The notes under the pieces: generated by a model
What the model saw: the letters and a program-made list of their open reading frames with translations, nothing else
Database searches by the model: none
What the model was told of the DNA's origin: nothing
Program-made: the position numbers and the translations under genes
In this document: in pieces, positions 2,637 through 38,974 of the stretch
Position numbering within the stretch: position 1 is the stretch's first letter
How the letters are laid out: the number at the start of each line of letters is the position of its first letter
NCBI GenBank assembly: GCA_937936465.1
Contig: CALDDH010000024.1
Location: forward strand, 1-39,487
Length of the DNA stretch: 39,487 nt
Source of the DNA: an uncultured Mycoplasmatales bacterium
GTDB taxonomy: Bacteria > Bacillota_I > Bacilli_A > UBA3375
Direction: 5' to 3'

Positions 2637-3293
2637 TTATTTAATTAGTAATTGTTGTTCTTGATATTTTTGATACCATTTAACTATTGCTATTACAGAA
2701 AAACCAGCAAATAATAACATTGTTAATGCAACAGATGGAACTCCTCGACCTAAATATAAAAAGATTGAAAAAATATCTGCTAAAATATAAATTACATATG
2801 CATCAAAATATCTCATTGAAAGCAAAAATGATCCAGCAAATGCAAGTGATGTATTAAGACCATCTAAGTATAACCCTTCACCAATTAATAATTCTTCAAT
2901 ATTTTTTAAAATAGGTATTAACATAATTATTACAACTGCAATTAAAATTCTATTCTTATTACTTAACATTTTTACTTCAATTCCTTCTCCATCATTTGAT
3001 GCATATTTAGACCATGATCTAAATTGAACAAAGGCAATAAGGAAATAATATGTGTATTGAAATCCATCCCACAGTAAGTGGTTTTGAAAGACAATTATCA
3101 CCATACACGATAACCAAATTAAATCTGGTATTATAAACCACTTACTCATTTTTGTTGTTAACCATAAGTTAAATATTGCTGCAAAAGCTGAGACCCATAA
3201 AATCCATCCAGTTGTCCCCATCCAAATATTTATCAATAATGTTGCAACTAATGCAAATAATAAATAGTAATCAATTACTTTTAATTTTTTCAT
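2637..3293 (-). CDS. Pnu-type (PnuC family) membrane transporter, copy 2
   Basis: A 218-residue polytopic membrane protein, paralogous to the product of 504-1187 over its full length: it shares the N-terminal DYYL.FALVATLL, the WSK region, WDGFQYTYYFLIAFVQFRSW and GEGLYLDGLNTSLAFAGS. The start at 3293 (MKKLKVIDYY) is chosen because GGAG lies directly in front; an in-frame ATG five codons upstream (3308) lacks a better site. It has its own terminator before pdp, unlike copy 1, so it is probably a separate transcript. The substrate is unproven; its position next to pyrimidine-nucleoside phosphorylase makes a nucleoside or nicotinamide riboside plausible. Confidence 0.75.
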   Translation of the reverse strand: MKKLKVIDYYLLFALVATLLINIWMGTTGWILWVSAFAAIFNLWLTTKMSKWFIIPDLIWLSCMVIIVFQNHLLWDGFQYTYYFLIAFVQFRSWSKYASNDGEGIEVKMLSNKNRILIAVVIIMLIPILKNIEELLIGEGLYLDGLNTSLAFAGSFLLSMRYFDAYVIYILADIFSIFLYLGRGVPSVALTMLLFAGFSVIAIVKWYQKYQEQQLLIK

Positions 3294-3404
3294 TTTTTCT
3301 CCATTCATTTTAATTATCTATTTATATCCACTCACTATGATTTTATTTTTATTTCTTTAATATTCTAACATGATTTTGATCTTATATTTAATTATTTAAA
3401 GTTT

Positions 3405-3626: not shown

Positions 3627-6600
3627 TTAATTTATTTCTTGGGTTTTTAATTCTATTTTATTATTTTCTACAGTCCCATTTTCAATAAAACCAACTAATG
3701 ATTGAGGGTCATTTTGATTAGTTATATTTCCTTGGACATCGTTTTTTGTAATTATTCCACCATCTAAATATCCAACTAATGCACCAGAGTAATCTTTAGC
3801 TATAATATTTAAATTAGTTAATTTTAAATTAGTAATTTCTATATCTTTTCCATAACCAATTAATCCTTGATTATCCTTAGTTGGATTATTAATATATAAA
3901 TTATCAATTGTAAAACCTTGCCCATCTATACTTCCAGTAAAGGGATTTGATTCTGTTCCAATTGCATTGAAACCATCAATTCCATATAAATTTTTATCAT
4001 GTGTTTCTTGGCAATCGATATCATTTACTAAAATATAATCTTGATTTAATGTGTCCTTATCATTTCCAATGTTTTCTAGTTCATGACAAGTGCTTATTTC
4101 CTTTTTATCTTCTACTTCATTGTTTTTTTCTTTTTCTTCTTCTGTAGTCTTAATTTTCTTTTGTTCATCTATTGATTTATTATTACTTGATTGTTGAATT
4201 ATAATTTCTGGTTGATTATCAAGCCCTTTAAGATGTGGATAGATTTTGGCTTGTGATTGAGAACTATCGATTCCAACTTCCCATATGTTTTTAGTATTCC
4301 AATTTAAATTATTACTATACCAATTACCTTGATTTATTAAATTTTGATATGTTGCAATACCAATCTCAGGATAAACAGTATTATCAATACCTATCATATT
4401 AGAGTTATTTACATTGCTACCATTTATTAATTGATATTGATAACTATAACTATCATCTATATAAGTTCCCTTCATTGTATAACCAATTAATCCTCCGGCA
4501 TTCGGACCTTCATTTATATTAAGACTTGAAAAGCAATTATTATAGTGACCTCCACGAGTATAACCAACTAGTCCTCCTACTGATGAAAATCCATTTGCTT
4601 CGCCTGTTGAGTATGAACTATATATATCACCATAGCTTGAACCTGCTAGTCCTCCAATGGACGTATATGCATCTATTTGAACATCTGTATAACTATTGTA
4701 TATCTTCCCTGAACTTATTCTTCCAACTAATCCTCCTACATCTTCGTTACCCTTTAAATCTCCTGTGACGAAACATTGATAAATATTTGTTTCTGAAGTT
4801 TCACCAACTAGTCCTCCAACTTTATTATACCCTGTGATATCAACATTAGTAAGCCCAAGCCTTTCAATTTTTGCAAAACTTGCATAACCTATTAAGGCTT
4901 GTTTGTTTAATGTTGGGTTATTAATGTATAGACTGTCGATAGAATAACCATATCCATCAATTGAACCATTAAAAGGTTTTTCATAAGTTCCAATTGGTTT
5001 GAAACCATCATCCCCATACAAACTTTGATTTTTTGTTTCACTACAATCAATATCATTTCCTAACATATAATTCTTAGATAAAGTTGAGCTATCAAGACCA
5101 ATGTCCTCAACTTCTTTACATGTTCTAACAATTGTTTTAGTTTGATTTGAAATTACTGAATCATGCTGGTTATTTAAATACTTTAAATGTGGGTAATATG
5201 CTTCATCATTTATTTTCCAACATGAATTAGTGTTCCAACCTAAAGTTGTTGAATAAAAGCTATTTTGATTTGTTAAATCCCCATAGTTAGCAATATAATA
5301 CTTAGAATTACTACTTGTATCAAGTCCAATAATATCTTCTGATTTAACATAATCAATTGACTGTCCTTGATCAAGACTAATTATTTGTTTATCATATGCA
5401 TAGCTATTTTCTACTAGACCATTTGCTGATATTTGACCAACTAATCCTCCACCAATCGAACTAGATTCAATATCTGTTGCACTAAAACTGTTAGTAAGTT
5501 GACCTCCTGTAACTATTCCAGCTAACCCACCTATTTCACTTTCTCCTATAACTTTTCCAATTGAATATGTATTATTAATGTTTCCACTGGAATTACCAAC
5601 TACTCCTCCTACATACTTTTGTCCTGTTGTTGTTCCCGTTGTATATGAATCTTCAATTATTGATAGGGCATTTCTTCCAATAAGTAAACCAACATTGTTA
5701 CTACCATTTACTTCTCCATTGACATAACTATTAGTTATTTGACCATTTTCAATATAACCAACTAATCCTCCAGTGTTTTCATTACCATTAACGGAAATAT
5801 TGTAAATAGAAAAATTATTAATTGTTCCACCATCAACATAGCCAAAAATAGCTTGATTATTTTTATTAGGAGCATTTATATATAAATTACTTATTGAATA
5901 TCCATGTCCATCAAAATTACCTGTAAAAGGATTATCAATATCTCCAATTGGATTGAAACCATCACTACCATACTTATTTGCATCTTTAGTTTCATTACAA
6001 TCAATATTATTGGCCAATTGATAATTTAAACTTAATGCATTTTGATCATTACCAATATTTTCAAGTTCATGACAAGTAGATATTAAAATAGTATTATCAA
6101 TTAATATTTCATTTTGATTACTAATATTTTTAAGGTGTGGATATATAACTTGTCCATCCTCATCTGTTTGCCCCACATCCCACACTTGATCAAGGTCCCA
6201 ACCTAATATTTCTTGATACCAATTGTTTTCATTTTTTAAATTTGATGTTGTTGCAATATTATAATTTTTTTCAGCTTGATTATCAACACCAACTATCGTA
6301 TTATTTGTTACTTTGTGAGCAGTAGCACCAAGATCTGTACTAATTATTTGATTTTCAGAAACATAACTATTATTAATTGTTGCATCATTGTTATAACCAA
6401 CTAATCCTCCTGCATAATATTTACCACTTACATTACCTGTTGCATATGAGTTGTTTATTTCTGAATTATTTGCATTAATCCCAACTAATCCTCCTGCTCC
6501 TCTATTACCTGTTGCAGTATCTGAGACAAAATCTGTGTCAACATTGGATGTTGAATAACAATTATTGACAACTGCTCCATTATAATTAATCCCAATCAAA

Positions 6601-7679
6601 CCTGCTGTTGAGAATGCAAATAATACCCCTTTAGTTTCTATCTTTCCAGTGGAATAGCTGTTTCTTATTATGCCACCACCAAAACCTCCAATATTTAATC
6701 CTACGAACCCTGAATTGACTAAAACTTTATTACCTTTGATATTAACAGATGAATAACTATTATTAATTGTTCCTAAATTAATGGATACTAAACCAGATAA
6801 TAAAGATGCACTTTGGTTCTCTATTAATCCTGATGTTGAAACTGAATTAAGTTCTCCTAAATTAAATCCTATTAACCCAGAGGCAATAGTGGAACTATTT
6901 TCAATATTCAAATCATCAAAATGAATATTATAAATTTCTCCACTCATAAATGTAAAAATACATGTAACGGATGAATAATTATCTGGATCATTCTCCAATG
7001 GATTAGTGTTACTTGTATATAAACCATTTACACTGTATCCATTTCCATTAAGCGTTCCACTAAATGGGTCTTGATAAGTTTGTCCAATTTGATCAAATCC
7101 ATCCTCACCATATAAATCTATATTTTCTGTCTCTGAGCAGTCTATATCAGTTGTTAAATTATAATCTTCATCTAATAACCATGCTTCATTGTGATTTGCA
7201 CCTGGATAATTTGCACCCTTACCAATACTTTCAAAATCTTTACACGTTGTAACATCATGGATTATTGGTTGAGGTTGGTATTCATATCGGGCCAATTCAT
7301 ATGGCTCATCTTGATCAGGCAACCCATCACCATTCATATCATATGGTGCACTTACAATAATATTATAAGGCTGACTAATGTCTATATTTTTAAATACAAC
7401 TTCCTGATTTAAACCAATAGGAGCAAGCAGACTATATTTTATTTCTGTCATTGTTGTATCATATATTCTAATTTCTGATGAATAACCATTTTCAATCATA
7501 AGTGTATCATTTTCTGATAAATCATAATTTACATATAAATTACTATTAATTGTTTCTACTTTATTTATTTTTGCTGTTGGCACTGCTACTTTAACTAAAT
7601 TATCTGCTGATAAAAATACTAGATTAAAGATTAATGACACAGCTATGGCATAACTGATAAAAATTATTTTTTTGCTCAT
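3627..7679 (-). CDS. large exported GLUG-repeat protein, four modules
   Basis: A 1350-residue secreted protein. Residues 1-25 form a signal peptide or anchor. Residues 30-140 are a head domain ending with a calcium-loop-like DMNGDGLPDQDEPYE (about 114-128). Four modules follow, each opening with TC(K/H)..E.IG and a second Cys in DIDC.ET, then YG.DGF..IG...PF.G, then several GLUG-type units (GGLVG....I.NSY..G). The opening Cys residues are near 146, 536, 854 and 1198. The first three modules close with YPHLK..xNQ; the fourth stops after about 150 residues without that closure. A Glu/Lys-rich linker (about 1165-1195) precedes it. Such repeats form beta-solenoid-like surface or adhesin proteins in other bacteria. 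No LPxTG motif or C-terminal membrane segment is present, so the mode of attachment is unclear. The ATG has AAGGAG upstream. Confidence 0.8.
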   Translation of the reverse strand: MSKKIIFISYAIAVSLIFNLVFLSADNLVKVAVPTAKINKVETINSNLYVNYDLSENDTLMIENGYSSEIRIYDTTMTEIKYSLLAPIGLNQEVVFKNIDISQPYNIIVSAPYDMNGDGLPDQDEPYELARYEYQPQPIIHDVTTCKDFESIGKGANYPGANHNEAWLLDEDYNLTTDIDCSETENIDLYGEDGFDQIGQTYQDPFSGTLNGNGYSVNGLYTSNTNPLENDPDNYSSVTCIFTFMSGEIYNIHFDDLNIENSSTIASGLIGFNLGELNSVSTSGLIENQSASLLSGLVSINLGTINNSYSSVNIKGNKVLVNSGFVGLNIGGFGGGIIRNSYSTGKIETKGVLFAFSTAGLIGINYNGAVVNNCYSTSNVDTDFVSDTATGNRGAGGLVGINANNSEINNSYATGNVSGKYYAGGLVGYNNDATINNSYVSENQIISTDLGATAHKVTNNTIVGVDNQAEKNYNIATTSNLKNENNWYQEILGWDLDQVWDVGQTDEDGQVIYPHLKNISNQNEILIDNTILISTCHELENIGNDQNALSLNYQLANNIDCNETKDANKYGSDGFNPIGDIDNPFTGNFDGHGYSISNLYINAPNKNNQAIFGYVDGGTINNFSIYNISVNGNENTGGLVGYIENGQITNSYVNGEVNGSNNVGLLIGRNALSIIEDSYTTGTTTGQKYVGGVVGNSSGNINNTYSIGKVIGESEIGGLAGIVTGGQLTNSFSATDIESSSIGGGLVGQISANGLVENSYAYDKQIISLDQGQSIDYVKSEDIIGLDTSSNSKYYIANYGDLTNQNSFYSTTLGWNTNSCWKINDEAYYPHLKYLNNQHDSVISNQTKTIVRTCKEVEDIGLDSSTLSKNYMLGNDIDCSETKNQSLYGDDGFKPIGTYEKPFNGSIDGYGYSIDSLYINNPTLNKQALIGYASFAKIERLGLTNVDITGYNKVGGLVGETSETNIYQCFVTGDLKGNEDVGGLVGRISSGKIYNSYTDVQIDAYTSIGGLAGSSYGDIYSSYSTGEANGFSSVGGLVGYTRGGHYNNCFSSLNINEGPNAGGLIGYTMKGTYIDDSYSYQYQLINGSNVNNSNMIGIDNTVYPEIGIATYQNLINQGNWYSNNLNWNTKNIWEVGIDSSQSQAKIYPHLKGLDNQPEIIIQQSSNNKSIDEQKKIKTTEEEKEKNNEVEDKKEISTCHELENIGNDKDTLNQDYILVNDIDCQETHDKNLYGIDGFNAIGTESNPFTGSIDGQGFTIDNLYINNPTKDNQGLIGYGKDIEITNLKLTNLNIIAKDYSGALVGYLDGGIITKNDVQGNITNQNDPQSLVGFIENGTVENNKIELKTQEIN

Positions 7680-7940
7680 AAAACTCCTTATATATTCAAT
7701 TTAATTAATATATTTATTATCTTTCCATTCTCAACCAATTTGATTATCATAAATTATTTGACTTGCATCCCCCCTTTGGACAATCAAACTTTGCTATTTT
7801 TATTATATCAATTATTAATTAAAATAGTAATTATTTTATATCTTTAATGAAGAAACTAAACAATATAATTATTTGTTTAGTCTTTATATAATATTTTTAT
7901 ATAGTAAAACATTTACAAAATAACAAATATTATTTAGTGC
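7680..7940. other. AT-rich spacer between the GLUG gene and the GLUG pseudogene
   Basis: No gene seen. It contains the upstream region of the intact GLUG gene, with its AAGGAG site next to the start codon, and the terminator-like hairpin at 7855-7881. Confidence 0.5.
7855..7881 (-). terminator. hairpin terminator downstream of the GLUG pseudogene
   Basis: A 9-bp stem ACTAAACAA/TTGTTTAGT (7855-7863 with 7873-7881) is followed on the minus strand by TTCTTC, only a weak T tract. It lies about 60 bases past the last codon of the decayed GLUG paralogue. Confidence 0.55.
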
Positions 7941-9285
7941 TTAATTTGTATAAATATAAATATTATTTTGATTTTCAATTTCCTCATCTGTATATTTATA
8001 ATTTAAATGTGGCAGATATATCCAATCTAAATTTGAATTTACTTGATTCCAATTTTCAAAACTCCAAAATAAATTTGTATTGTACCAATTTATATCGGAT
8101 AGTTGTATTGTATTTATAAGTTCATTATCAAAGGTGTCTGAAAATGATTCATCACCTTTCCCAATAATTTGTCCTTGTGTTATATTTATTGTTTGACCAT
8201 CTATTATAATATGAACTTGATCATATGCAAAGCAATTAACTGTATACGACCCATGTATTGCTAATCAAACTATCCCTCCTAAAATATTTTTTCCAGTTAC
8301 TGTTCCAGTTGCATAAGTATTGTTTATTTCTCCCCCTACAAACATTCCGATAAGACCTCCAACATATAAACTACCATCAATATTACCATTTGCATAACTA
8401 TCATTTACTATTGTGTAATAACAATTACCAATTAATCCCCCAACTTCATTTATCCCATTAGCAAGTCCTTTGGAATAAGAACTTGATATTATTGTATTAT
8501 TTATTTTGCCTGATAAAATTCCAACTTCATTATTTCCAGTAACTGTTGAATTTAAAAGTCCTAGATCCTCAATTTCAGCATCTTCTAATATTGAAAATAA
8601 TCCAACGTTGTTTTCTGTTGGTTTATTAATGTATAAACTATCAACTACATATCCTCTTCCATTTAAATATCCTGTAAAGCTACTTCCTTTTCCAATTGGA
8701 TCAAATCCATCTTCTGAATATGTATTTTCTAAACTACCATCATCAGGATAATTAGGATTAGATGAACTACAATCAATATTATTATTTAAATAATAATTAC
8801 CACTTAGTGCCAAGCACTTTGGTGTGATGCACCACTGTAATTTTCACCTTTTCCAATACTTTCTAAATCTTTACAATTTGATATATTATAATAGATAGTA
8901 TTTGCGTCTGGTTGATATTCATAACGAGTTAATTCATATGGTGCTTCATTGTCAGGTAAGCCATCACCATCTATATCATATGGAGCACTTATAATAATCA
9001 TATATGGAACTGTAATATTTATATCTTTAAATACTACCTCTTGATTATCACCAATAGTTGCCAATAGACTATATTTAAAACCTATCATATTTACATCATA
9101 TAAACTGACTTGTGGCTGATACTCAGTCTCATACATTAAAAATTGTTTTCTGGTATATCATAATTTAAATGTATACCACTATATATTACAAAAACATTAT
9201 TTATTGTTCAGGTTGGCACACCAACTTTAATTTAATTATCATTAAATAATATTTTATTTCAATCATATAATAAATTAAACTTATG
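7941..9285 (-). pseudogene. decayed single-module GLUG protein gene
   Basis: A paralogue of the gene at 3627-7679, colinear with its head domain and one module. Recognisable pieces are the head (KVGVPT..., then YSLLATIGDNQEVVFKDINI, DIDGDGLPDNEAPYELTRYEYQP), the module opening CKDLESIGKG and NNIDCSSSN, the GLUG units, and the closing LPHLNYKYTDEEIENQ with a stop at 7941. Lesions seen: in-frame stops in the N-terminal segment (about 9200-9240), a frameshift near 9145, a frameshift near 8806 (after GASHQSAW), and a TGA at about 8262-8264 where the paralogue has Gly. With at least four lesions it cannot make a full product. The 5' limit is approximate; a TATAAT-like -10 is visible just upstream. 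This copy never had more than one module before its stop, unlike its four-module neighbour. Confidence 0.85.
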
Positions 9286-12023: not shown

Positions 12024-12614
12024 CTAACTTTCAATTATTTCTGCCTTAACAACATAGCGGTTTGTTATCTTTGTTCCAAACCCAAATGGATAACATGTGT
12101 ATAATGAAATACCTTGACCATCTGTTTCCCAAAAAACTTCATCTACTTGATCATCTTCAATTACTTTTGTATCAGTAACTTGATAATGATATATTTGACC
12201 TGTAATATTTAAAGTAATCTGATCACCGACTTGAATATCTTCAAGTTTTTTAAAAGCCATTTCTCGGTGACCTGCCAGAACAACAACTCCAGCTTCATTT
12301 GGCATTGATCCACTTGGGTCAAATGTAACCCCTTCATTTAAGGCCGAAGCTAAACCATCACCGGGATTACCTAAAAGAACTGCTGACTCTAAGTCAACTG
12401 CTGGTATTTCAAGGTAGCCAATAACTTCATTTTCTAAACTTTCAATAGATTGATTATTGTCTGCATCAGGCTGATCATATTTCTCGTGAGCTTGATTTAA
12501 ATCAGCTCTAGAGTTAATAACTCTATACGCAAAACTTAATACATAATAACTAATAATGATAATTGAAGTAATTAATAAAATATTAATAAGCTTATTTATT
12601 ATTTTATTTTTCAT
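12024..12614 (-). CDS. class D-like sortase
   Basis: A membrane-anchored transpeptidase of about 196 residues that would attach surface proteins to the wall. An N-terminal membrane segment (about residues 7-27) precedes the sortase barrel. The catalytic triad is visible: His in LAGHREMAF, Cys in LYTCYPFGF and Arg in KITNRYVV. The TLNI...YHYQV block and the TCYPF signature resemble class D housekeeping-type enzymes. The start at 12614 (MKNKIINK) overlaps the coaX stop and implies translational coupling; an in-frame ATG at 12632 is the alternative, and neither has a clear Shine-Dalgarno site. No protein with an LPxTG-like sorting signal is encoded in this window, including the GLUG protein. Confidence 0.88.
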   Translation of the reverse strand: MKNKIINKLINILLITSIIIISYYVLSFAYRVINSRADLNQAHEKYDQPDADNNQSIESLENEVIGYLEIPAVDLESAVLLGNPGDGLASALNEGVTFDPSGSMPNEAGVVVLAGHREMAFKKLEDIQVGDQITLNITGQIYHYQVTDTKVIEDDQVDEVFWETDGQGISLYTCYPFGFGTKITNRYVVKAEIIES

Positions 12615-13311
12615 GTTTGCTACATTCAACATACTTAATTAATCCATTTAATACAATATCTTCAAAATATTTGGCACCTTCAAATTCAATTAAAAAGCGA
12701 TCTCCACCACTAATATATACTTCGGGCGTATTTTTTGTAAACAATGATTTAGCATGCTCAATCAAGGATATAATTGATCCTTGATTACCAATACTAAGAC
12801 CATTATGAATGCTTATATATGTATTGTTTGATATATTATTTTGATGAATTGCATTTATATCAGTCATGATTTTTTTTTCCATCCATTTAGATCCTGGATA
12901 AATTAAAATATTACGTAAACTTCCATCAATAACAGAACTGACAGTAGTAGCAGATCCCATATCAACAATTATATAATTTTTTCTTTCAATTAATGCATAA
13001 CAACCAAGTAAGATATCAATTCCTAAATCAAAACTATTTTCAATTGGATCACTTTCTTTTAAATCAACTGAGATATAATTTAATAAATTAGTAATTTTAA
13101 TTTCATGCGTATTATTTAATTGTTCTTTGAATATATCTGATACCCAAGAAACAACACTACTAATATATATATCAGTTGTATTATATTCTTTTATTTGATC
13201 AACTATTTGATCAATATTATTTAAATCATATAAGTAATCATGAAATTTATCGGGATTCTTACTTGTTATATATTTAATTTTTGTATTACCTATATCAATA
13301 TAAATGTTCAT
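12604..13311 (-). CDS. coaX: type III pantothenate kinase
   Basis: It phosphorylates pantothenate in the first step of coenzyme A synthesis, in the cytoplasm. The 235 residues carry the ASKHA-fold marks of the CoaX family: DIGNTKIKY at the N-terminus (phosphate 1), LGIDILLG in place of the usual G.DR block, VDMGSATTVSSV in place of D.GTATT, and ISGGD near the C-terminus. The Arg of the GxDR motif is replaced by Ile and the Thr of GTA by Ser, so the motifs are divergent though the fold pattern is complete. It starts 8 bases after rnj and overlaps the sortase gene. Confidence 0.82.
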   Translation of the reverse strand: MNIYIDIGNTKIKYITSKNPDKFHDYLYDLNNIDQIVDQIKEYNTTDIYISSVVSWVSDIFKEQLNNTHEIKITNLLNYISVDLKESDPIENSFDLGIDILLGCYALIERKNYIIVDMGSATTVSSVIDGSLRNILIYPGSKWMEKKIMTDINAIHQNNISNNTYISIHNGLSIGNQGSIISLIEHAKSLFTKNTPEVYISGGDRFLIEFEGAKYFEDIVLNGLIKYVECSKHEK

Positions 13312-35749: not shown

Positions 35750-36574
35750 TTATTTTTTTATTTCATTAAATGTCTTAAATGATGTTTTAGCAAATTGACT
35801 TAATACTTCTTTACTATTTTGATCTACAAACTCTTGTGCTTTTAACTTTACATTTGCACCAAGTGGTAAATTGAAATTATATTTTACTCTGAGCATTGCC
35901 ATTTCACCTAGAAAATAATGACGAGCAATAATAGATGCGAGTGCTACGCATATATACCTGTCATCAGCTTTAGTTTCAATTACCAAACTATCCTTCCATT
36001 TAATATTTAATTTTTGACTTTTACTATAAAAATTCTTTTCTGTTGTAAATAAATCAATAATACTTATATAGTCAGCTTGATCTAGTTTTTGATAATTTTG
36101 GTGATGATAATATAGCTTTTGATCAACTGATGATAACTTAGAGTCTATATCGCGGTCATATACTACTTGAATTGAATAATTAATAATCTTTCTAACTTGC
36201 CTATATATATTTGCCATTTCCTGATCTGTTAACTTTTTAGAATCTTTAATTGGTAAACATAACTTACCTAACTCTTTGATTGAATCTTTTTCTAACTTAA
36301 CTGCGCAATAAACAGTTGGTCCAAAGAAGTCCCCAACTCCGACTTCATCATAGCCAATTTTTTTATCTTCAGTTATATGTTCAAATAACTTTTGATAGAT
36401 TGCTTGTTTTTTTTCTCCAGCAATTAAAATCGTATTAGTTGTATATATTTTAATATTAAATTTTGGGTGTTTATATTCTTGAATAATATATTTTCCCGTT
36501 GGCTGAATTTGATACTTCGCAATATTCTGCTCTAAATATAGTTTCATTTCAGGTGTGCAAATTGTACTAACCAT
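35750..36574 (-). CDS. rnhC: ribonuclease HIII
   Basis: It cleaves the RNA strand of RNA-DNA hybrids. The 274 residues carry the N-terminal TBP-like domain of RNase HIII (about 1-70) followed by the type 2 RNase H fold: GYDEVGVGDFFGP with Asp76-Glu77, PIKDSKKLTD, and ETKADDRYICVALASIIAR. The start overlaps the stop of the CapA-VanY gene by one base, so translation is coupled. The pairing with an envelope enzyme gene seems incidental. Confidence 0.93.
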   Translation of the reverse strand: MVSTICTPEMKLYLEQNIAKYQIQPTGKYIIQEYKHPKFNIKIYTTNTILIAGEKKQAIYQKLFEHITEDKKIGYDEVGVGDFFGPTVYCAVKLEKDSIKELGKLCLPIKDSKKLTDQEMANIYRQVRKIINYSIQVVYDRDIDSKLSSVDQKLYYHHQNYQKLDQADYISIIDLFTTEKNFYSKSQKLNIKWKDSLVIETKADDRYICVALASIIARHYFLGEMAMLRVKYNFNLPLGANVKLKAQEFVDQNSKEVLSQFAKTSFKTFNEIKK

Positions 36575-38346
36575 TAATTCTCCTCATCTGTTTGAGCTTC
36601 GTAAAAAAGATATTCTTCAAGCGTCAAGTTTTCTTCATAAATTTCAGTTGCAACTTCTACACCGACATAACGCAAATGCCAACTCTCGTGCATATACTGA
36701 GTGACGTCTTCTTTACCTTGAGGGTACCTGACTATAAATCCATACTTGTGAGCATTATCTTCGATCCAAATAGATGCCTCTGTATCATTAAAAGCTTCAA
36801 CACCCTCAGAACCGATGCTTTGCTCTGAAATATCAAATGATAAACCTGTTTGATGCTCACTAAAACCAGGTCTTGCCGAATATCTATCAGCTTCTTGCAC
36901 TGACTCAGCCGATACATAACTATTATATAAACTAACTTGTGTTTCATACGGCCTGAAACCTGAAACAAAAACTAAATCATAACCTGCTTGTTTTGCTCCT
37001 TTAAATAAGGCTTCAACATCATCTGCAATTCTTTGATCAATATAGTGAACATCACTACTCGTACGGGTAGACTCTAAAACATCAGGTATAACTAAACTTT
37101 CTGGCTCATAATTTTCTGGCAAGTAATTGTTTTTATTAACGAGCATTAAAAAGTCAGATGGGTCTACAACTTGTTTAGTAGATGAATAAGCAGTTGGTGG
37201 AAAGTATGCTCGGTATTGCTCTTCAATGACACTTGTATATATTTCTTTAGCATTATCAGCAACTTCCTGTGATGTAAAAGTAGAAAGCGATGATAGAGGC
37301 ATTACATGAAAATTAGTTCTTGAATTTAAATCTTGCTCACTTTGGTCCCCCCACTCATAATACATATACGTTGGGTGAAAAATAATATTATCTATTTCAA
37401 TCTTTTGTCCAGTTTTAATAATATCAAACTGCAAGATTCCACCAACTTTTTGTTCTTCATCTATTTGACTATGTAAAAAATTACCTAAAGAATATGCAAC
37501 AAGTGCCTCATTACCTTCCGAGTTGACTGTCTTTTCAATTGGCTTTAAGACATGAGGATGAGTTCCTAAAATAACTTCTACCCCACTACCTAATAAGTAA
37601 TCAACTATCTCTTGATCTGAACTAGAAATTTGGGAATTATTTTCTTCACCATAATGAATTGAAACAATATTTACATCACCTGTAGATGTTAATGCATCAA
37701 TGTTATCATCATAGTTATCACTATCAATCATATTGACATTACAATTATATAATTGCTCTGGTTTATTTACAAACTGTGTAAATGCACTATATGTAAAATC
37801 AATCCCATTAATTGTAAAACTTTCATATTCAAAATTATCACAACTATCATTATAACCACTAACTGCAACTTCTGGATAAGTTTCTTTTATATAATCATTA
37901 GTTTTAACAAGTGACTCTTCACCTGTATCTAATATATGATTATTAGCAATGGAAAGTAGGTTGAAACCAGAGTTAACTAATGAATCAACTAAATCAGTAT
38001 GCGCATTAAAAGTTGGATACCCCGCAACTGGCAATTCATTATTAATTGTAGTTTCTAAATTAGCATATAATATATCCGCTTGCTCAAACATTGGCAAATA
38101 ATATTCAAATATTTTTTGATACTCATATACTCCACTCTCACCATTTAAAGCCTCTTTATTAATTGAATCATGAGCTATAATATCGCCTACTGCCATAACA
38201 CTAACAACTGAACTATCTATTTCATCTTGGTTTGCATCTGCACTAAAGACTTTATTTATTAGTATAAAGATACTAAAGATAATTAAAACCATTATTATTA
38301 ATATTGTGATTTTTTTACTTTTTATATACTCAATAATTTTATTCAT
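36574..38346 (-). CDS. membrane-anchored CapA-type plus VanY-type fusion protein
   Basis: A 590-residue cell-surface protein with two enzyme-like domains. Residues 13-35 form an N-terminal anchor. A CapA (PGA_cap, calcineurin-like phosphoesterase fold) domain covers about 46-330, with VGDIIAHD (Asp55), NLETT (97-101), ANNHILD (134-140), HYGEE (231-235), GTHPH (261-265) and YSLGNF. A VanY-type D,D-carboxypeptidase domain covers about 430-580, with SGFRPYETQ, the zinc ligands His498 and Asp505 in SEHQTGLSFDIS, and Glu554 and His557 in ESWHLRYVG. The CapA half suggests a poly-glutamate or wall-polymer link; the VanY half trims D-Ala peptides. Both sets of residues look intact. It is first in a unit with rnhC and has GGGAG upstream. 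Confidence 0.88.
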   Translation of the reverse strand: MNKIIEYIKSKKITILIIMVLIIFSIFILINKVFSADANQDEIDSSVVSVMAVGDIIAHDSINKEALNGESGVYEYQKIFEYYLPMFEQADILYANLETTINNELPVAGYPTFNAHTDLVDSLVNSGFNLLSIANNHILDTGEESLVKTNDYIKETYPEVAVSGYNDSCDNFEYESFTINGIDFTYSAFTQFVNKPEQLYNCNVNMIDSDNYDDNIDALTSTGDVNIVSIHYGEENNSQISSSDQEIVDYLLGSGVEVILGTHPHVLKPIEKTVNSEGNEALVAYSLGNFLHSQIDEEQKVGGILQFDIIKTGQKIEIDNIIFHPTYMYYEWGDQSEQDLNSRTNFHVMPLSSLSTFTSQEVADNAKEIYTSVIEEQYRAYFPPTAYSSTKQVVDPSDFLMLVNKNNYLPENYEPESLVIPDVLESTRTSSDVHYIDQRIADDVEALFKGAKQAGYDLVFVSGFRPYETQVSLYNSYVSAESVQEADRYSARPGFSEHQTGLSFDISEQSIGSEGVEAFNDTEASIWIEDNAHKYGFIVRYPQGKEDVTQYMHESWHLRYVGVEVATEIYEENLTLEEYLFYEAQTDEEN

Positions 38347-38452: not shown

Positions 38453-38974
38453 ATGTTAACTAAAATAATTATTTTATTTTCAATTTATGCATTTGCAGGT
38501 TGGATAATTGAAGTTATATATTGTAAGATAGTTGGAAAAAAGAAATTAAAAAATAGAGGCTTTATGCATTTACCTATTTTACCTATTTATGGTTTTGGTG
38601 CATTAATTGGAATTTATCTTTTAAGTTCATTTAAAGATAATATTATCTTACTCTTTTTGTCTGCTGCTTTACTATTGTCATTATTAGAATATGTGGCAAG
38701 TTTCTTATTAGAGATAATTTTTAACTTGAAGCTTTGGGACTATAAGCATAAAAAAATCAATCTTCATGGTAGAGTATGCTTAGAAAACACTATTTTATTT
38801 GGGATATTAGCATTAGTTGTAGTTTACTTTATTAATCCATTATTACTGACTTTAATTAACAATATAGGACCAACTACACTTAATATAATTGCACTTATAT
38901 TATTAATTATTATTGCAATTGATTTATACAAAACTTTTAAAAGTAAAAATAAAAGAATTAAGATAAAGACATAA
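38453..38974 (+). CDS. membrane protein of the CmpB (putative ABC-transporter type IV) family
   Basis: A 173-residue protein with about four to five membrane segments. The N-terminal YAFAGWIIEVIYC, then NRGFMHLPILPIYGFGA and the loop HGRVCLENTILFGILALV, resemble the CmpB-like family often labelled putative ABC-transporter type IV; the biochemical role is not established. The AAAAGGA site precedes the ATG, and an extended -10 lies about 30 bases upstream. It is the only intact gene on the plus strand and is divergent from the CapA-VanY gene. Confidence 0.75.
   Translation: MLTKIIILFSIYAFAGWIIEVIYCKIVGKKKLKNRGFMHLPILPIYGFGALIGIYLLSSFKDNIILLFLSAALLLSLLEYVASFLLEIIFNLKLWDYKHKKINLHGRVCLENTILFGILALVVVYFINPLLLTLINNIGPTTLNIIALILLIIIAIDLYKTFKSKNKRIKIKT

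Follow-up and report, generated by a model that had tools for sequence, protein, structure and literature searches.

Fusion of a CapA-family domain with a VanY/LdcB-type carboxypeptidase domain in an uncultured Mycoplasmatales bacterium: a possible cell-wall enzyme that edits peptide C-termini

Proteins of the CapA family occur widely on the surface of bacteria, and few of them have an assigned role. One gene in a 39,487-nucleotide stretch of DNA from an uncultured Mycoplasmatales bacterium (the whole stretch is referred to here as the window) encodes a CapA domain and a VanY-type domain in a single protein, which raises the question of what the two halves do together and on which substrate they act. 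The initial annotation had proposed that a polymer-linked phosphoesterase-fold activity is combined with D,D-carboxypeptidase trimming, and that the wall peptide and a capsule-like polymer are handled together. The analysis described here favors a different reading, to which we assign a probability of roughly 45%: the protein would be a bifunctional, membrane-anchored enzyme of the cell wall that edits the C-terminal ends of peptides and is made up of an epimerase-like CapA half and an L,D-carboxypeptidase half.

The gene and its parts are located in the window as follows.

36574..38346, minus strand: fused gene, 590 aa, a CapA domain followed by a VanY/LdcB-type domain (single open frame; two Pfam domains)
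38242..38313, minus strand: predicted N-terminal membrane anchor, about residues 12-35 (hydrophobic run in the sequence; modeled helix at 2-39)
37204..38214, minus strand: complete CapA unit, about residues 45-381, with a predicted calcineurin-like fold nearest to MslH (PF09587 at 50-293; model pLDDT 87; Z 31.8 against MslH for model residues 45-385)
37162..37203, minus strand: joint between the domains, about residues 382-395, stop-free (open frame; model)
36598..37161, minus strand: VanY/LdcB-type zinc carboxypeptidase unit, about residues 396-583 (PF02557 at 434-562; YodJ, 4ox3; pLDDT mostly above 85)

The frame begins with an ATG start codon and fills exactly the interval given for the gene, and the profile search of the genome's contigs places it in a stop-free open frame of 611 residues. 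Both Pfam matches are far beyond chance: PGA_cap (PF09587) was matched with an E value of 3.2e-51 (174.7 bits against a cut-off of 27, covering profile positions 2-254 of 255), and VanY (PF02557) with an E value of 3.4e-40 (137.3 bits against a cut-off of 25). A stop near residues 340-420, which had been feared as the mark of a sequencing error joining two genes, was looked for in the frame and none was found, so that two genes read as one can be ruled out. The assembly is a draft (25 contigs, 87% complete), and misassembly at the joint is unlikely because the joint is uninterrupted and in frame. The fusion of the two domains in one protein, and the N-terminal helix that would anchor it in the membrane, are thus confirmed and predicted, respectively, as the initial annotation had it. 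In the full-length model the VanY half is mostly above pLDDT 85, and the orientation of the two domains relative to each other has low reliability. The joint is uncertain in the model of the CapA half (pLDDT about 52 in its last block). The VanY/LdcB-type unit has no signal peptide of its own, and we infer that the protein lies outside the cell, tethered by its N-terminal helix.

For the VanY half, YodJ (4ox3) is the nearest solved relative: it scores 181 bits in the sequence comparison and shows 50% identity in the fold search, where VanYB follows with 36% identity. The ranking by NCBIfam models points the same way, although every score stays below the cut-off of its model: LdcB (NF041194) was best with 149.2 bits against a cut-off of 275, the VanY models gave 118.8 of 400 bits and 88.6 of 425 bits, and the VanY/VanXY models, at 118.8 and 109.7 bits, rank below LdcB. 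The glycopeptide-resistance D,D-peptidases VanY and VanXY belong to the same Pfam family, PF02557, but are farther away by both sequence and fold. The catalytic center is located as follows.

36676..36855, minus strand: zinc ligands H498, D505 and H557, with E554 (sequence match; invariant residues; SpLdcB residues from PMC4087270)

The available text of PMC4087270 gives the SpLdcB site as Arg120, Gln125, Ser151, His153, Asp160, Tyr191, Tyr201, Glu204 and His207. By numbering, these correspond with a constant offset of 345, and then of 350, to R465, Q470, S496, H498, D505, Y541, Y551, E554 and H557 of the fused protein, all of which are present. The VanY half therefore shares with LdcB, DacB and YodJ (4ox3, 4ox5; PMC4087270, as far as the available text goes) the zinc ligands, the Glu, Arg, Gln and Ser, and both Tyr residues, and differs from them in being joined to a CapA domain, in its sub-threshold LdcB score, and in that its activity is predicted. 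As judged from these comparisons, the half appears closest to the LdcB/YodJ L,D-carboxypeptidases rather than to D,D-enzymes, and the proposed D,D-carboxypeptidase trimming loses its footing. An L,D preference seems the better guess because the best relatives and the model ranking are of the LdcB type, the SpLdcB site is kept, and the genome encodes one DacA-type D,D-carboxypeptidase, separate from the fusion, that could supply tetrapeptides. A YkuD match is absent from the genome (87% complete), which weighs against the editor reading, as tripeptides would then lack an evident purpose.

For the CapA half, residues 1-385 were modeled alone from 19 sequences, giving a pLDDT of 87 and a pTM of 0.83. 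The model is closest to MslH, with a Z score of 31.8 and an rmsd of 2.7 over 291 aligned residues, and the next best protein has a Z score of 18.1. Sequence identity to MslH is only 16%, which speaks against the epimerase reading. In a profile search with the CapA half, MslH was the sole solved relative found (E 2.3e-17), while the match to the NCBIfam MslH model NF038314, at 31.2 bits, is far under its cut-off of 700. A review describes MslH as a CapA family protein (PMC9266682, available text), and according to the available text of PMC10406935, MslH is a calcium-dependent enzyme that epimerizes a peptide at its C-terminal residue, with the acid-base dyads His88/Asp91 and His295/Asp11 and the calcium ligands Glu44, Asn87, His259 and His261. 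The CapA motif residues D55, H59, N96, E98, N136, H137, D140, H231, H263 and H265 are all present in the fused protein, and those that correspond to the MslH dyads are found at these positions.

38182..38184, minus strand: D55, putative counterpart of MslH Asp11, in a dyad with H265 (position in the GD motif, conservation; PMC10406935, available text)
37927..37938, minus strand: H137 to D140, putative counterparts of MslH His88/Asp91 (alignment; conservation)
37552..37560, minus strand: H263-P-H265, in which H265 matches MslH His295 and H263 matches MslH Gly293 (alignment; conservation)

Both His/Asp dyads of MslH are thus kept, as H137/D140 and H265/D55, with Asp11 assigned through the GD motif; together with the site residues of the VanY half, this bears out the suggestion that the key residues of both domains are intact. 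The calcium ligands are matched in part. E98, N136 and H231 are present, and H231 aligns with His259, while the place of His261 is taken by G233 and H263 might replace it. Because the dyads are kept, the place of His261 is a glycine and H263 is present, the metal site of the window copy appears to lie between those of MslH and the classical phosphatases. Since the half lacks the MslH ligand His261 and has H263, the site may be of the ordinary two-metal kind.

In an alternative reading, the CapA half would be a phosphodiesterase or phosphatase of the two-metal kind whose substrate is a polymer attached to the wall, for instance teichoic acid or capsule, with the VanY half trimming wall peptides in the same place. 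Such an enzyme would have the calcineurin-like fold that is predicted here, all of the classical two-metal ligand positions (D55, E98, N136, H231, H263 and H265) are kept in the window copy, and phosphatases and nucleotidases rank directly after MslH in the fold search. MslH is, however, much closer than any of the phosphatases, and the place of YmdB Asn40, which is T99 in the window copy, is never Asn in the 72 compared rows that have a letter there. The site was compared with 75 other CapA domains, 22 of which come from loci with a neighboring vanY. Across the whole comparison the dyads vary hardly at all. Of the 22 rows, 8 have lost the ligand H263 typical of phosphatases, 7 of them with Gly as in MslH, whereas the dyads stay (D55 in 21/21, H137 in 20/21, D140 in 20/21 and H265 in 21/22 of the rows with a letter). 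Two rows, L110_9294 and L127_6763, are without the H263-type ligand, E98 and H231 and still keep the dyads. We consider a phosphoesterase unlikely on this evidence; the calcineurin-like fold that had been foreseen stands, and the phosphoesterase activity attached to it is unsupported, since MslH is by far the nearest solved structure. The CapA half is most likely a metal-dependent epimerase like MslH. MslH (PDB 8gq9, 8itg; PMC10406935, available text) is its nearest solved fold, with both dyads and Glu44, Asn87 and His259 matched; the fused protein differs in its low sequence identity, in having Gly for His261 and H263 for Gly293, in its membrane anchor, and in being probably extracellular.

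The genome is 0.99 Mb in size, and its sole PF09587 match and its sole PF02557 match both fall in the fused frame. The gene is flanked by the following neighbors.

35750..36574, minus strand: RNase HII/HIII family gene; its start and the stop of the fused gene share one base (open reading frame list; domain search)
38453..38974, plus strand: divergent neighbor, a PF06541 membrane protein (open reading frame list; domain search)

A scan for promoters and terminators around the fused gene gave results no better than shuffled sequence, and the direct and inverted repeats there are short two-copy matches. Elsewhere in the window, a sortase gene (PF04203) lies at 12024-12632, in keeping with an organism that maintains its cell wall. 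A pair of closely similar PnuC-type transporter genes (PF04973) at 504-1187 and 2637-3308 flank one ORF, which from its sequence we take to be a nucleoside phosphorylase. The interval 3627-9136 contains the gene of a GLUG-repeat protein of 1350 residues and, upstream of it on the same strand, two short overlapping frames (8265-8813 and 8804-9136) that look like a broken relative.

The name of PF09587 refers to capsule synthesis, and the CapA half could accordingly be pictured as the surface subunit of a synthase of γ-polyglutamate or a similar amino-acid polymer, with the VanY half helping to anchor the polymer to the wall. PgsA, which we take to be a CapA-family protein, shares PF09587 with the fusion. 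In B. subtilis, PgsA affects the stereochemistry of the polymer, as the D/L ratio of γ-polyglutamate is 5/95 without pgsA and 75/25 with it (PMC6029982, available text). CapA domains are also joined elsewhere to peptide-forming enzymes, namely to a Mur ligase with Peptidase_S11 and to an ATP-grasp-like region (L192 and L190, described below). However, a search that does detect the synthase partner CapC/PgsC (PF14102) in B. subtilis gave no match in this genome (87% complete), and no synthase genes are visible beside the fused gene. A γ-polyglutamate role is unlikely because CapC was not found, and we regard a polymer synthase of this type as very improbable. The capsule-like polymer of the initial annotation is thus unsupported.

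The case for one peptide substrate shared by the two halves draws on genes that are not fused. Of 52 CapA loci from related Bacilli, 9 contain a VanY domain, against 0.68 expected from the VanY counts and sizes of 50 genomes with 11 kb windows, a Poisson expectation that overstates independence because the genera g110 and g176 each contribute 2 of the 9 pairs. The 52 loci comprise 45 CapA matches from the search of 392 phylum genomes and 7 from the search of 60 relatives; some weak CapA matches among the relatives were left out, two of them from G030 and the others from G024 and G037, the locus from G021 (L027) was retrieved and not counted, and five adjacent pairs were already visible in the phylum search before the loci were retrieved. 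The paired genes are always on the same strand, and they are adjacent or about one small gene apart (one small gene lies between vanY and capA in L073 and L091). In 7 pairs vanY comes first; in the other two, L055 and L064, capA comes first as in the fusion, with 10 bases between the genes.

Both families were also present in 12 of 80 named CapA loci, these being the best 80 of 562 with the ranking not stated. The 12 are from Alkalibacterium, Cohnella, Aliicoccus, Metalysinibacillus and Salinicoccus, four labelled Saccharibacteria, and three unclassified; the CapA of L117 sits behind an antisense frame and was counted through a six-frame scan. Among 90 genomes of the Saccharibacteria class, a CapA match was found in 6, and a VanY match stood beside it in 6/6, with the genes convergent and the matched stretches 30-144 bp apart. 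That sample was centered on G529, chosen since its locus L105 holds the pair, and 5/5 among the other genomes is the fairer count because G529 was preselected. In L142 (5196-10161) and L151 (5072-10932), the convergent pair lies between putative ribosomal protein genes, which we take from their sequence to be S10 and L3/L4. In the Aliicoccus persicus genome G534, locus L123 has the order vanY-capA-capA, and its second CapA (8121-9056), beside the intact one, is without H137, D140, H265 and most of the site residues, as if that domain were kept for binding only.

Separate adjacent vanY and capA genes (L099, L117, L123, L177, L055, L064, L142, L151 and others) therefore place the two families of the fusion side by side, differing from it in being two genes, often with vanY first and, in Saccharibacteria, convergent. 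The vanY-capA pairing is well supported, and the suggestion that the two activities belong together gains from it. The fusion is the joined form of a recurrent gene pair, since the separate genes adjoin in the Bacilli, in the named loci and in Saccharibacteria. In the CapA tree the paired label is clustered (7 changes against a mean of 19.3 after shuffling), and the starred branches force at least 3 changes; in the VanY tree, a single origin of the pairing may suffice. In these trees the CapA and VanY halves of the window protein have long, poorly placed branches and are not grouped with the paired genes, and for this reason its descent from any sampled pair cannot be claimed.

The same data bear on whether the halves simply act independently, the fusion being a neutral accident between co-localized wall enzymes in a shrinking genome. 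The genome is small, a single fusion was seen, and elsewhere the CapA and VanY genes mostly stand apart: there is no pair in 43 of the 52 Bacilli loci or in 68 of the 80 named loci, counts that also weigh against the editor reading. Against such an accident, adjacent genes of the two families are far more frequent than expected by chance, in both gene orders and in two phyla, and repeated changes in pairing are required by the CapA tree. An accident of this kind seems improbable to us.

A second CapA-VanY fusion was not found in 60 relatives, in 395 genomes of the class (E 1e-58), among the matches listed (to 2.3e-34) from the 392 phylum genomes (1e-25), in 291 Clostridia (1e-38), in 90 Saccharibacteria (1e-15), or in 132 loci scanned by HMM, where the genome samples overlap and distant fusions could have escaped the strict thresholds. 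Among plasmid and phage records, none covered the fusion at 80% coverage. Eight long VanY frames were considered as further fusions; the four from Clostridia contain only VanY by profile, and the four from Bacilli only VanY by Pfam. The open-licence literature, with some candidates judged by title, yielded no description of a CapA-LdcB pairing or of a CapA-VanY fusion. The fusion is therefore unique within the searches made, both of its families being known, and it was neither common nor already characterized in the material sampled. The CapA-LdcB pairing is of more interest than the fusion itself.

Other CapA fusions were met in the loci. In Aliicoccus persicus G534, a frame of 1095 residues (L192:2477-5761) joins Mur ligase domains and a Peptidase_S11 region to CapA. 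A frame of 717 residues from a Tissierellia bin (L190:170-2320) joins CapA to an ATP-grasp-like region. On a viral contig of 413 kb, CapA is joined to a region with a HEVNTH stretch that matches the MATCAP tyrosine carboxypeptidases with an E value of 1.1e-11 (L187:2923-5154). These three point to a peptide role for CapA without proving it. A protein of 919 residues from genome G021 (L027:817-3573), in which CapA is joined to Acyltransferase_3 and a GDSL hydrolase, does not fit a purely peptide role.

The reading of the fused protein as an editor of peptide ends starts from the computed fold, the fusion, the intact sites and the recurrent neighborhood in Bacillota and Saccharibacteria, and takes the wall peptide as the presumed substrate, epimerization as the presumed chemistry of the CapA half, and the two sites as presumably coupled. 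Both active sites would edit the C-termini of one peptide class, most likely the cell-wall stem peptides. The DacA-type enzyme would supply tetrapeptides by a preceding D,D step, the LdcB-type half would remove the terminal D-Ala from the tetrapeptide stems, and the CapA half would exchange the proton at the alpha carbon of the C-terminal residue of the peptide. Coupling may take one of two forms. Trimming may uncover a fresh C-terminal residue, to be inverted by the CapA domain. Alternatively, the CapA domain may invert an L-terminal residue in a reversible reaction, with the D-specific peptidase removing the product and so pulling the equilibrium. A broader proposal, which we put forward as speculative and on balance doubtful, is that CapA and LdcB form a widespread two-enzyme system editing the stereochemistry of wall-peptide ends, present as a gene pair in Bacillota and Saccharibacteria and fused only here in the sample. 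If this were true, wall stems would carry epimerized C-terminal residues that are invisible to standard muropeptide mass analysis because epimers are equal in mass.

In summary, the fusion and the recurrent gene pair in two phyla provide a concrete substrate hypothesis for CapA, namely peptide C-termini. If the CapA half is an epimerase, then cell walls would carry a stereochemical modification that stays hidden, and the common label "capsule synthesis protein" would misdescribe many genes.
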